Part shown: piece by piece, positions 32,283 to 37,479 of the stretch | Layout of the letters: each line of letters starts with the position of its first letter | How positions within the stretch are numbered: the stretch's first letter is position 1 | Assembly: GCF_025643595.1 (NCBI RefSeq) | Contig: NZ_CP102826.1 | Location: forward strand, 5,828,001-5,892,000 | Origin: Saccharopolyspora rosea | GTDB lineage: Bacteria > Actinomycetota > Actinomycetes > Mycobacteriales > Pseudonocardiaceae | Reading direction: 5' to 3' | Length of the DNA stretch: 64,000 nucleotides | The notes under the pieces: generated by a model | Told to the model about the DNA's origin: nothing | What the model saw: the letters and a program-made list of their open reading frames with translations, nothing else | The model's database searches: none | Translations under genes and position numbers: made by a program

Positions 32283-33959
32283 GTGCCCGAATCGTGGCCA
32301 TACGAAACCCCGCACGAACCGAAGGACAATTCGCGATATCGACGAAAGCTCAGCCGGAGACTGGCGACCGCGGCGCTGGTCCTGCCGTCGGCGGCCTGGC
32401 CCGCGTGGGCCGTCGGGTGCGATCCGGACGACAAGGAGTGCCAGGTCGACGAGTACCTGACCAGCGTCAAGGGCGATCCCGACCAGCTGCGCGCGTTCCT
32501 GCTGGACCTGCCCAAGGGAGGTGACCTCCACAACCACCTCCGCGGTGCGGTCCCCACCGAGAAGCTGATCGACTACGCGATCAGGGACAACATCTGCATC
32601 AACGACCTGACGCTCCAGTCCCGCCGCCCGCAGCCCTGCAAGTCGCCCGAGCGGCCGGCGACGGACATGAACGGGGACGTGAACTTCCGCAACCGGGTGC
32701 TCGGCGCGTGGTCCATGGAGGGCTTCACGAACCCGGACCTGCAGGCGGGCCACGACCACTTCTTCGCCACGTTCGGCAAGTTCGGCGCGGCCGCCGACCG
32801 GCACGACGGCGACAGCCTCGCCGAGGTCGCCAGGATCACCGACCGGCAGAACCAGGTCTACCTGGAAACCCTGCTCGGAGCCCGGTCCACCGACACCAAG
32901 AAGCTGGTGAACAAGGTCTGGGGCACGCAGAAGCCGGTCACCCCCAACGATTTCGGCACGCTGCTCGACAAGCTCACCGAGAACGGGGCGATGGCCGCCA
33001 TCGCGAACCACGCGGCGAACGACCTCGCGCAGGTCTACACCGACGCGCGCAACGAGTTGCAGTGCGCGGACCGCCAGAACGCCGATCCGGCCTGCGGGGT
33101 GGACATCCGCTTCGACCACCAGGTCGGCCGCAACCAGCCGCAGGCGGTCGTCTTCGCCCAGCTGCTGCTCGGGTTCCTGCTCCAGGGCACGCAGGGGTGG
33201 GACCGGTCGGTCGGGGTCAACCTCGTGCAGCCCGAGGACGGCAAGATCTCGCTGCGGGACTACCACCTGCAGATGCAGATGATCCGGTTCCTCAAGGGGA
33301 AGTTCCCCGGCAAGCACGTGACGCTGCACGCCGGAGAGCTGGTCAGCGGCCTGGAGGGGGTCAGCTACCACGACCTGACGTTCCACATCAACGACGCCGT
33401 CAACACCGCCGGTGCCGAACGGATCGGGCACGGCGTGGACCTGCGGCACGAGGACGAGTGGCGCGCCCTGACCCACGTGATGCGGGACCAGCACACCGCG
33501 CTCGAAGCCCCGCTGACCAGCAACTGCCAGATCCTCAAGGCGTGCGCCCCCGGCGAGGAGCCCGACACGCACCCGCTGACGGCGTACCGGGACGCGAACG
33601 TGCCGGTCGCGCTGGCCACCGACGACGCCGGGGTGTCGCGCAGCGACATGACGGAGGACTACCAGCGGGGCGTCACGCACTTCGCCCTGGACTACTACGC
33701 GCTGAAGAAGCTCACCCGGGACTCCCTGGAGTACGGGTTCATGCCCGGCGGAAGCCTGTGGCGCAACCGCGACGGCTTCGAGTTCGTGCAGCCGTGCGAG
33801 GGGGCCGATCCGAGCCAGGAGCACCCGGGCGGGACGTGCGGGGAGTACCTGGACGCCAACGTCAAGGCCAGTCTCCAGTGGACCCAGGAGCACCGGCTGC
33901 ACGTGTTCGAGGAGAAGTACTCGAACGCCGCTCACCGACTCGCCGATCCCGCGGCGTGA
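32283..33959 (+). CDS. Secreted adenosine deaminase-family protein
   Basis: This 558-residue protein starts at GTG 32283 after GAGGAG. An export signal (RRLATAALVLPSAAWPAWA) precedes an amidohydrolase fold with the metal-binding His83-x-His85 (DLHNHLRG), a LHAGEL motif (catalytic Glu), GHGVDL and a terminal DDAGVSRSDM. These are all features of adenosine deaminases, here in the longer growth-factor-like (ADGF) form. It should deaminate adenosine outside the cell. It heads a three-gene operon with a 202-residue protein and a radical SAM enzyme, an unusual partnership. Confidence 0.88.
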   Translation: MPESWPYETPHEPKDNSRYRRKLSRRLATAALVLPSAAWPAWAVGCDPDDKECQVDEYLTSVKGDPDQLRAFLLDLPKGGDLHNHLRGAVPTEKLIDYAIRDNICINDLTLQSRRPQPCKSPERPATDMNGDVNFRNRVLGAWSMEGFTNPDLQAGHDHFFATFGKFGAAADRHDGDSLAEVARITDRQNQVYLETLLGARSTDTKKLVNKVWGTQKPVTPNDFGTLLDKLTENGAMAAIANHAANDLAQVYTDARNELQCADRQNADPACGVDIRFDHQVGRNQPQAVVFAQLLLGFLLQGTQGWDRSVGVNLVQPEDGKISLRDYHLQMQMIRFLKGKFPGKHVTLHAGELVSGLEGVSYHDLTFHINDAVNTAGAERIGHGVDLRHEDEWRALTHVMRDQHTALEAPLTSNCQILKACAPGEEPDTHPLTAYRDANVPVALATDDAGVSRSDMTEDYQRGVTHFALDYYALKKLTRDSLEYGFMPGGSLWRNRDGFEFVQPCEGADPSQEHPGGTCGEYLDANVKASLQWTQEHRLHVFEEKYSNAAHRLADPAA

Positions 33960-33984
33960 CGACGACCGATTCCGAGGAGGAACG

Positions 33985-34593
33985 ATGACCCAGCCCTGGA
34001 ACCCGCCCACCAAGGACAAACTCGACTTGAAGCTCGGCGTGGAGACGATCGAGAAGTTCGAGTCGTTCATGTACACCCTGGACGCCAAGGAGAACCGGGA
34101 CAAGCTGAAAGACACGCAGAACACGCAGGTCCCCGAGTCGGTCAGGGAACTGCTCAAGATGATCGAGGAGAAGGGGACCGAGGAGAACCCGGGGTTCCTG
34201 CTGTACGCGCAGTACCTCCAGGACTCCCTCGACAAGCTCGCGAGCCTGGCCACCGTCATCGCCGAAGGCGGCAACAGCGAGTCGCAGGAGGCGTACAAGA
34301 ACCTCGAAACGCAGGTGAAGAACTTCAACAACTACATCGACACCAACTACCCCAACGCGAAGGCGCTGCTGCAGATGTACGGGTCGTTCCGGCGCCCGTT
34401 GACCCTGGACGAGGGGCAGGCGCAGTTCCGCCGCAAGAAGTTGCAGGACCCGAAGTTGAAGAACAACCAGGACATCCAGGACGGCACCGTCATCGTCTCG
34501 GCGGCCGGGGTCGTGCTGACCAACGTGGCAGCGGCGGCGACCGTCGTGGTCGCGGCCGAGGCGGTGGTGTTCGCCGCCGCGTTCGTGGCCTGA
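33985..34593 (+). CDS. Hypothetical protein with hydrophobic Val/Ala tail (candidate RiPP precursor)
   Basis: This 202-residue protein starts at ATG 33985 after GAGGAGG, 25 bases behind the deaminase. Residues 1-165 are hydrophilic, helical and rich in Lys, Glu and Asn with no Cys. The last about 37 residues switch abruptly to Val, Ala, Gly, Thr and Ser. The contrast resembles a long leader plus hydrophobic core, as in radical-SAM-modified peptides. Alternatively the tail is a membrane helix. It is followed 23 bases later by a radical SAM gene. I recognise no family; the precursor idea is inference. Confidence 0.6.
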   Translation: MTQPWNPPTKDKLDLKLGVETIEKFESFMYTLDAKENRDKLKDTQNTQVPESVRELLKMIEEKGTEENPGFLLYAQYLQDSLDKLASLATVIAEGGNSESQEAYKNLETQVKNFNNYIDTNYPNAKALLQMYGSFRRPLTLDEGQAQFRRKKLQDPKLKNNQDIQDGTVIVSAAGVVLTNVAAAATVVVAAEAVVFAAAFVA

Positions 34594-34616
34594 CGTCGAA
34601 CGTCCACTGTGGAGCA

Positions 34617-35687
34617 ATGCGCGAAGGGATCCCGATGTTCATCCGCCCGCACACCCTGTCGCTGATCACGACGCACCGCTGCACCGCCGCCTGCGACCAC
34701 TGCTGCTTCGGCTGCACACCCGACATCCCGATGAGCAGGTCGATCCCGGTGGAACGGATGCGCGGGCTCATCGACGAGGCCGCCACCATGCCGAGCATGA
34801 AGGTCGTCGTGTTCACCGGCGGCGAGTGCTTCCTGTTCGGCCGCGACCTGGTCGAACTGGTCCGCCACGCGACCGAGCGGGGCCTGGCCACCCGCTGCGT
34901 GACGAACGGCTACTGGGCCCGCACCAGGAAGGCCGCCCGCAAGCGCCTCGGCGAACTGCGCGAGGCCGGGCTCGGGGAGCTCAACCTCTCGACGGGTTCG
35001 TTCCACGCCCGGTACGTGCCCGCGGAACGCATTGTGCACGCGGCGGCGGTGGCCGCGGAACTCGGGCTCGGGACGCTGGTCAACGCCGAGGTCTACGCCG
35101 AATCGGACTTCGACATCGACGCGATCACCGAGCACGAGGAGCTGGCCGGGCACATCCGGTCCGGTCGCCTGCGGGTGCAGCGCAACGTGTGGATGACCAA
35201 CGACTGGGGCGAACAGGAGATCAGCCACGACGACCGGGCCTCCCGGTTCCGGGAGGAGAACAAGACCGGCTGCGACACCGTGCTCAACGTGCTGACGGTG
35301 ACGCCGGACCAGGACCTCGTGGCGTGCTGCGGGCTCACCCAGGAACTCATCCCCGAGCTGCACCTCGGCTCGGTGGCGGACCGGCCGCTCACCGAGGTCG
35401 TGGAGCGGACGCCGGACGACTTCCTCAAGATCTGGATCCACGTCGAGGGACCGGAACGGGTCCTGGAGTTCGTCAAGCGGCACGTCCCGGACTACGAACT
35501 GCCCACCGACTCGGTGCACCCCTGCCAGACGTGCCTGCACCTGCACCGCGACGAGACCGCCAGGCGGGTGCTCCGCGAGCACTACCGCAGCGAGGAGGAC
35601 CGCGTCACCGACCTCTACCTCGCGGGGATCGCGAGCCAGGCGGTCCGCAACCGGACGCTGCCGGCGTTCTCGACCGCGGAGAACTGA
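34617..35687 (+). CDS. Radical SAM protein with SPASM-like C-terminal cysteines
   Basis: This 356-residue enzyme has the canonical CX3CX2C cluster (Cys22, Cys26, Cys29) with extra Cys30 and Cys33 beside it, and a GGE motif (FTGGECF). Its C-terminal half holds Cys219, Cys237-Cys238, Cys303 and Cys306, fitting an auxiliary iron-sulfur cluster as in SPASM/twitch peptide-modifying enzymes. It is the last gene of the operon and is followed by a 15-bp terminator. The likely substrate is the preceding 202-residue protein. ATG 34617 or ATG 34635 may be the start. Confidence 0.88.
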   Translation: MREGIPMFIRPHTLSLITTHRCTAACDHCCFGCTPDIPMSRSIPVERMRGLIDEAATMPSMKVVVFTGGECFLFGRDLVELVRHATERGLATRCVTNGYWARTRKAARKRLGELREAGLGELNLSTGSFHARYVPAERIVHAAAVAAELGLGTLVNAEVYAESDFDIDAITEHEELAGHIRSGRLRVQRNVWMTNDWGEQEISHDDRASRFREENKTGCDTVLNVLTVTPDQDLVACCGLTQELIPELHLGSVADRPLTEVVERTPDDFLKIWIHVEGPERVLEFVKRHVPDYELPTDSVHPCQTCLHLHRDETARRVLREHYRSEEDRVTDLYLAGIASQAVRNRTLPAFSTAEN

Positions 35688-35736
35688 GCGGACCGGCGGA
35701 CGCCCTGGGCCCCGGGGTCCAGGGCACTCGGACGAT

Positions 35737-35770
35737 GGCGATTCCCCCGGCGGGAGCCGGGGGAATCGCC
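35737..35770 (+). terminator. Intrinsic terminator after the radical SAM operon
   Basis: Perfect 15-base arms (35737-35751 and 35756-35770) enclose a GGGA loop. It lies between the radical SAM gene and the convergent small secreted protein gene and can serve both. Confidence 0.85.
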
Positions 35771-35793
35771 GCACCGGTTGACGGTTGGCGCCG

Positions 35794-36036
35794 TCAGTTC
35801 TTGACCATGACGGTCAGCAGCCACGACCCGTCGTGCTCCCAGTCCTCGCAGCCCGAGCCGACGACGTTGGGGTCCTCGGCCTCCAACTTGTGCCCCTCCG
35901 CCTTGCATGCCTCCAGGCTGGGGAACTGACCCTTCTCCACCGGATGAGCGTCGACGGCGAGCGCGGTGCCCGCACCCAGCACGGACATGCCGGCGACGCA
36001 CAGCGCCAAGGTCGTGACGGTCTTCCGAATCCGCAT
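35794..36036 (-). CDS. Small secreted hypothetical protein
   Basis: This 80-residue protein has a signal peptide (residues 1-27, cleavage near ALA-VD) and a mature part of about 53 residues with two cysteines (EACKAEG and GSGCEDWEHDG), likely forming one disulfide. It has an acidic character and a C-terminal SWLLTVMVKN. No known family. It is convergent with the radical SAM operon and could be exported independently. Confidence 0.65.
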   Translation of the reverse strand: MRIRKTVTTLALCVAGMSVLGAGTALAVDAHPVEKGQFPSLEACKAEGHKLEAEDPNVVGSGCEDWEHDGSWLLTVMVKN

Positions 36037-36765: not shown

Positions 36766-37479
36766 TCACATGCCGTTCAGCGCGGCGACCATCATCAGCA
36801 CCGAGCCCGCGAGCCCACCGACGAGGATGACCGCCGAGGCGACCAGCGCCGGACCGACCCGGTACAGGTGCCGCACCACCAGGTACGCCGCCGCGGCGAC
36901 GAGGAAGGGGAAGAACGCGAAGAAGGGGGCGAGCCAGGAACCCGCGCCCATCAAGACGACGCAACCCGCGGTGGCCAACGCCGACACCCGACCGCCGAAG
37001 TCCTTGCGGGTGGCCCGGTAGGTGAGCACACCGGCGAACACGGTGCTCCCGACCGGGAAGGAGAACGCCAGGAAGGCGCTGGACGCCAGGCAGCCCACCA
37101 GCCCGCCGACGAGGACGACCGCCGACACCGCCAACGCCGGGCCGACCGGGAGCAGGCCGCGCATCGCCAGGTGAACGGCCGCGGCGACGAGGAAGACGAA
37201 GAAGGGGAAGAGCGGTGAGAACGCGGAACTCGCGCCCACCAGGACGACACAACCCGCGGTGGCCAGCGCCGTTCCCCGCCTCCCGAAGTCCCGGCAGGTC
37301 AGCAGGTAGGTGACCGCACCGGCGACCACGGTGCTCCCGATGCGGAAGGGCAGGGTGAGGAGGAAGTCGGGTTGCATGCGCGCCAATCCCATCGTCTCGC
37401 TGGCGGGTGTCCGCTGCGGTGGACGCGCGGCGCCGACGGTGGATGCTCCACGAACGCCAGAAGTGCGATCGGTCTCCAC
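36766..37479 (-). CDS. Membrane protein made of two tandem homologous halves
   Basis: This 237-residue protein has about six to eight hydrophobic helices. Residues of about 38-130 and 131-230 are clearly similar: each half has GSTV-AG--TY, then DFG-R--ALATAGCVVL-GA, then a PF--F-FLVAAA stretch, and R-----GPAL--SAV-LVGGL. It arose by internal duplication. GTG 37479 has a GAGG site seven bases upstream; ATG 37377 is an alternative start closer to the first helix. The function is unknown. Confidence 0.65.
   Translation of the reverse strand: METDRTSGVRGASTVGAARPPQRTPASETMGLARMQPDFLLTLPFRIGSTVVAGAVTYLLTCRDFGRRGTALATAGCVVLVGASSAFSPLFPFFVFLVAAAVHLAMRGLLPVGPALAVSAVVLVGGLVGCLASSAFLAFSFPVGSTVFAGVLTYRATRKDFGGRVSALATAGCVVLMGAGSWLAPFFAFFPFLVAAAAYLVVRHLYRVGPALVASAVILVGGLAGSVLMMVAALNGM

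Follow-up and report, generated by a model that had tools for sequence, protein, structure and literature searches.

A radical SAM enzyme of EpeE type paired with a Val/Ala-tailed candidate precursor in Saccharopolyspora rosea, and similar pairs in distant microbes

Results

A stretch of 64,000 nucleotides from Saccharopolyspora rosea (contig NZ_CP102826.1, positions 5,828,001 to 5,892,000 of the forward strand; hereafter, the window) carries a gene pair that probably encodes the precursor of a ribosomally synthesized and post-translationally modified peptide (RiPP) and an enzyme that epimerizes it. The candidate precursor, P0002 (33985–34593, + strand, 202 residues), consists of a helical leader (approximately residues 1–166) and a Val/Ala-rich tail (residues 167–202; 34483–34590, +), which we propose as the core peptide, and P0003 (34617–35687, +, 356 residues) resembles the radical S-adenosylmethionine (SAM) enzyme EpeE, also named YydG. 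We assign a probability of about 0.68 to the reading that P0002 is a RiPP precursor whose tail is epimerized by EpeE-type P0003, with a membrane-active product as the likeliest outcome. Under this proposal, P0003 would abstract C-alpha hydrogens from residues of the Val/Ala tail, and C238 would return hydrogen from the opposite face, and thereby convert L- to D-residues, probably at many positions. A protease, none of which was found in the operon, would then cut the epimerized tail from its leader. The released tail, if exported, would act in the membrane, where it would most likely form a beta-helical tube of the gramicidin/polytheonamide kind or disturb the membrane potential, and would ultimately serve as an antibacterial product.

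The SAM-cluster motif CX3CX2C of P0003 (C22/C26/C29) does not vary across the 17 sequences aligned, and C219, C237, C238, C303 and C306 align to cysteines of Bacillus subtilis EpeE (PDB 8ai1–8ai6), whose overall fold is matched by the P0003 model; all 17 likewise retain the EpeE-like CC pair together with the remaining key cysteines. An earlier reading made from the sequence alone had placed these eight cysteines correctly and left C30, C33, C71 and C94 unmentioned. C219, C237, C303 and C306 are presumed to hold an auxiliary cluster, a choice among the five C-terminal cysteines that we infer, and C238 is the presumed hydrogen-atom donor, judged by its alignment with EpeE Cys223. Two papers on EpeE (PMC5682303, PMC8326336) describe Cys223 as the donor and Val and Ile as the residues acted upon, and a Cys223 mutant of EpeE is reported to lose epimerization and to break the peptide (PMC8326336). 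Pfam detects no B12-binding domain in P0003, and a PoyD-type name is absent from the 25 of its 32 NCBIfam matches that were listed. The alignment and the model point to P0003 being EpeE/YydG-like, that is, to an epimerase family whose catalysis it would share.

The tail of P0002 begins abruptly and, as the sequence-only reading had stated, contains no Cys; it has a single Leu and two aromatic residues. We scored such segments as V+A+N minus D, E, K, R, H, P and Q in the best 25-residue window of a protein. At 18, P0002 exceeds all 270 open reading frames (ORFs) of at least 100 residues in 20 evenly spaced 20-kb pieces of the same genome (400 kb), among which the maximum is 16 and only four reach 14 or more. 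An AlphaFold prediction built on two sequences, of low confidence (mean predicted local distance difference test score of 52), gives a helical leader and a tail that is not folded as a helix. The leader is homologous to that of a Thermogemmatispora protein (L005:7125–7841; pairwise BLASTP E-value of 1e-5, 22% identity over 132 columns), which was reached solely via the enzyme search and not via P0002 itself; no P0002 homologue was found in 396 other sampled genomes of its order, nor among the plasmids, nor in the genome_contigs collection by a pattern search sensitive to close relatives only. In the sequence-only reading, homologues without a radical SAM neighbour would have spoken against the pair; the only leader homologue found, that of L005, directly precedes its own radical SAM gene, so no such case is on record.

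Sequence comparison finds similar pairs in many distantly related bacteria and in a single archaeon. We assembled 30 enzyme loci: 20 from genome_contigs with the enzyme as query, seven found in plasmids by tblastn, one on a contig of the viral collection, a second Thermogemmatispora copy from a profile search of seven genomes, and the window; near copies among them are L009/L013/L021, L019/L022 and L008/L035. A partner, chosen by reading the neighbourhoods, was recognized in 27 of the 30, encoded on the same strand, 159–368 residues long, its gene's nearest end lying −26 to +227 nucleotides from the enzyme gene. Partner cores score at least 14 in 21 of these 27 loci and at least 10 in 26, the weaker ones being those of L038 (13), L018 and L033 (11 each), L010 and L040 (10 each) and L015 (7), as well as the first partner of L011 (6). 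In a count free of such picking, across L005–L024, 13 of the 91 ORFs lying no more than 2.5 kb from the enzyme gene reach 14, compared with none of the 124 lying farther away. Partners were not found in L007, L023 and L024, all counted in the 30; the enzyme match spans residues 169–323 only in L023, and the L024 enzyme shows 24% identity. The earlier suggestion of a RiPP-type pair, a radical SAM enzyme beside a Val/Ala protein with a long, unrecognized leader, is supported by this recurrence.

Leaders vary widely between partners. The core is internal in most of them, with 36–144 residues beyond the 25-residue core window, and lies near the C-terminus only in the window, L005, L033 and L039; Sec- or Tat-like starts are visible by eye in partners of L005, L006, L012, L014 and L020. 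Pfam and NCBIfam scans of 24 partners returned no convincing family beyond DUF5969 in one, weak matches to the SDP-type toxin model TIGR04032 in five and one weak match to a model related to the nitrile-hydratase-like (NHLP) leaders (E-value of 0.0012). The DUF5969-annotated protein, from a Collinsella aerofaciens plasmid record (L041:3252–3977), looks like a precursor of the same class with an Asn ladder; its annotated enzyme seems N-terminally short, and no paper on DUF5969 was found in the open-access literature.

The closest relative of P0003 is its sister in Thermogemmatispora (57% identity, tree support 98/91). The window's own order yielded only two weak enzyme matches (26–29% identity) in 396 other genomes, and its phylum none at 1e-45 in 395 others; because of this distribution, the P0002–P0003 pair has probably moved horizontally. 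Other branches of the enzyme family reach further. In an archaeal copy, on a Halocatena salina plasmid (L039), the enzyme gene adjoins one whose protein carries a Val/Ala core close to the C-terminus, and the enzyme of the second, distant Thermogemmatispora locus (L033; G397:C3, ~542–546 kb) is sister to the archaeal one in the tree (100/99). That locus encodes two tandem partners with short C-terminal cores, followed by what is, by eye, an ABC-transporter-like ATPase. Phage records gave no match, and the viral collection a single contig (L034; IMGVR_UViG_2919543075_000003), filed as viral, with enzyme, precursor and bPH genes and an enzyme nearest in the tree to that of Pseudoalteromonas (93/91); it may be a prophage or a misfiled contig.

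Several relatives carry regularly spaced Asn residues. In the L005 core, Asn occupies every sixth position (2, 8, 14, 20 and 26), which 0 of 5000 placements reach; all 17 Asn of the Thermus core and all 18 of the Calidithermus core fall on alternate positions; Asn pairs six apart are enriched in the Collinsella core (10 versus 3.9 expected, p = 0.0002); and an Elusimicrobia locus (L020:9075–10070) has four Asn exactly six apart. One such pair each occurs in L011, L019, L022 and L034, and among the 23 partners without a methyltransferase, spacing six is found 6 times versus 1.6 expected (p = 0.005, twelve spacings tried). Across 26 cores, residue classes recur at lags 2, 4 and 6 and shun lags 1 and 3 (Stouffer values of +3.9 for period 2, +4.4 for period 6, −5.2 for lag 1 and −4.2 for lag 3), the positive signal coming mainly from L008, L035, L041, L009, L016, L037 and a few others. 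The 26 include the core of the first L011 partner, wrongly picked by rule in a signal-like N-terminus, and rows that are not independent (L008/L035, the two L009 partners and the two L033 partners).

Related methyltransferase genes lie in the four most Asn-rich loci (L005, L008, L035 and L041) and in no other of the 30 within the flanks examined; the two of the four scanned with NCBIfam match HemK/PrmC amide-methyltransferase families below cut-off. Since L020 has a ladder and no such gene, a ladder is not always accompanied by the methyltransferase: L020 strengthens the former and weakens the link to the latter. B12 radical SAM C-methyltransferases scoring above the TIGR03975 cut-off are encoded in L009 and L018, with homologues in L013 and L021. 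In the Mesorhizobium locus L009 (5003–6766 and 10234–12180), this enzyme and another radical SAM protein, which matches YydG best but under cut-off, are encoded near two partners whose cores alternate Val and Ala. SdpI-family proteins are encoded near L005, L008 and L035, and a papain-family protease beside L038. Pfam recognizes a bPH_5 (bacterial PH-domain-like) protein encoded after the pair at both L020 and L034; it has homologues in L006, L011, L012 and L014 and is a candidate immunity protein.

An adenosine-deaminase-like protein (ADA; 558-residue ORF, 32283–33959, +) is encoded upstream of the pair and judged, by position, to be co-transcribed with it. Its PF00962 match reaches 75.8 bits against a gathering cut-off of 27 and covers residues 343–488 only, and it stays below the TIGR01430 equivalog cut-off (74.7 of 216.55 bits); a signal sequence seen by eye makes it a putatively secreted protein. 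Counting its own genome, ADA relatives occur in 9 of 397 genomes of the order and 2 of 22 of the genus. None accompanies any of 32 radical SAM loci (29 of the family and three more distant), and none of 13 ADA loci (9 distinct places, five with ~1.5-kb flanks) contains a relative of either pair member; eight genomes of another genus keep ADA with no enzyme match at 1e-20. We therefore rejected ADA as part of the module, given its lack of co-occurrence, and regard it as most likely a passenger; the link to extracellular adenosine removal drawn in the sequence-only reading is not supported. As a separate observation, the genus's only other ADA homologue, in genome G841 (L065:5784–9783), has a radical SAM gene of another kind ~0.9 kb away in divergent orientation, whose product matches TIGR04053 best but under cut-off; the arrangement may be fortuitous.

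The three genes are tightly spaced on one strand, as had been claimed, with gaps of 25 (ADA–P0002) and 23 (P0002–P0003) nucleotides. An AGGAGG ribosome-binding site, read from the sequence (33975–33980, +), sits 4 nucleotides upstream of the P0002 ATG (33985). P0003 may truly start at an alternative ATG (34635, 350 residues), the point where its nearest relative begins MFIRPH. Two strong hairpins follow the operon (35699–35773, +; −74 kcal/mol, z = −5.2, none of 200 shuffles equally stable); because no T-run was seen behind them, the strong terminator that had been proposed is only partly borne out. The next ORF lies past the hairpins on the opposite strand (35794–36036, −), and further on, 36769–37479 (−) encodes a 237-residue protein that is by eye very hydrophobic, with tandem repeats and no Pfam match.

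Discussion

The locus resembles two known systems and, by family models, appears to belong to neither. P0003 shares with EpeE its fold, the CX3CX2C motif, the C-terminal cysteines and the CC pair, yet scores far below the TIGR04078 (YydG equivalog) cut-off and stands beside a 202-residue partner. The EpeE substrate, by comparison, is a short pre-pro-peptide. With polytheonamide and the channel-forming proteusins (PoyA/PoyD/PoyE, PoyB/PoyC), P0002 has in common a long leader and a Val/Ala(/Asn) core, the Val/Ala/Asn-rich C-terminal core being a proteusin trait, here with one Asn only; some relatives add Asn residues spaced by six, a gene resembling amide-type methyltransferases, or C-methyltransferases of the B12 radical SAM kind. 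PMC11285071 describes a hydrogen-bonded chain of N-methyl-Asn at positions 16, 22 and 28 of the polytheonamide beta-helix, installed by PoyE. The P0002 leader, in contrast, has no NHLP match in NCBIfam or Pfam at E-values up to 1, on which ground we rejected P0002 as a proteusin; its enzyme is of EpeE type, and the window has no Asn ladder.

The SDP cannibalism toxin system (SdpC/SdpI) likewise has a precursor with a hydrophobic toxin segment. The four TIGR04032 matches of partners seen in detail overlap the hydrophobic core and lie far below cut-off (best 25.8 of 99.2 bits), P0002 itself has none at E-values up to 1, and tblastn with the SdpI of two relatives found no SdpI in the window; membership was rejected on these scores. 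To our knowledge, SDP maturation does not use a radical SAM enzyme. No pairing of EpeE-like enzymes with such precursors was found in the open-access literature searched by title and abstract, which is no proof of novelty.

A number of observations weigh against the epimerized-precursor reading. P0003 is a relative of the TIGR04078 equivalog rather than a member, because it scores 92.1 of the 300 bits required, and its identity to EpeE is only ~20%. The P0002 leader has but one detected homologue, and P0002 lacks an obvious signal peptide, whereas several relatives seem to have one. Its core carries a single Asn and does not alternate as a strand would (lag 1 z = +2.1, lag 2 z = −1.0); the polar residues T168, N180, T186 and E192 share a six-residue register that is only a hint (p = 0.02, uncorrected for the eight periods tried). 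No methyltransferase of the relatives' kind was found in the window, nor one of the L005/L035 kind in the 17 kb examined at L020, and the spacing-six enrichment outside methyltransferase loci is due to L020 (3 versus 1.4 without it, p = 0.16). L007, which the tree places in P0003's group of three (97/99), lacks a recognizable partner, and no transporter, protease or SdpI-type immunity gene was recognized among the ten flanking proteins scanned in the window.

These points leave room for other readings. The tail might be epimerized yet never freed, staying in its protein as a membrane-spanning or structural element that resists proteases; in relatives, that protein would often be an exported one. 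The internal cores and the Sec- or Tat-like starts of several partners would suit this; the SdpI-family genes and the papain-family protease near some relatives give their loci a bacteriocin-like look, as does their scattered occurrence (1 of 396 genomes of the phylum at 1e-45), and the EpeE and polytheonamide products are membrane-active peptides, so that we think this unlikely. P0003 may, alternatively, be a membrane protein maturase, the second role offered by the sequence-only reading. Some other chemistry on the tail (cross-linking, oxidation or C-methylation), or a different target protein, is also improbable in view of a core without Cys for thioethers and with only two aromatic residues, the full conservation of the EpeE-like cysteines and the lack of a B12-binding domain.

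That the tail is an ordinary transmembrane helix in a fortuitous gene order is highly improbable. Thirty-six hydrophobic C-terminal residues without alternation would make a plausible membrane anchor, but a helix with one Leu in 36 residues, outscoring every ORF of the genome background, would then have to turn up next to members of one enzyme family in 27 of 30 loci and show period-2 and period-6 signals over 26 cores. We give equally little credence to ADA as a working part, whether in removing extracellular adenosine or in disposing of 5'-deoxyadenosine, the by-product of each epimerization. The shared operon and the G841 arrangement could be read that way, and the abstract of PMC8102628 describes 5'-deoxyadenosine released by radical SAM enzymes as an inhibitor; against it stand the absence of co-occurrence in either direction and the apparent export of ADA, which makes by-product disposal a weak rival only.

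Beyond the window, we see about even odds that the pairs form an unnamed, cross-domain RiPP class, in which EpeE-type epimerases would act on varied long precursors to give gramicidin/polytheonamide-like D/L beta-helices. Cores would be internal or C-terminal, sometimes behind export signals, with six-spaced Asn in some branches and HemK-like amide methyltransferases in four loci. The class would range over a Thermus plasmid, Collinsella, Lactococcus, Elusimicrobia, a halophilic archaeon and this actinobacterium. As far as we know, polytheonamide-type beta-helical channels come from few organisms and one leader/enzyme lineage. If EpeE-type enzymes do build such tubes on unrelated leaders across phyla, D-residue membrane peptides would be far commoner than thought, and the minimal locus of one precursor and one enzyme would offer a simple system for studying how an epimerase chooses its residues.

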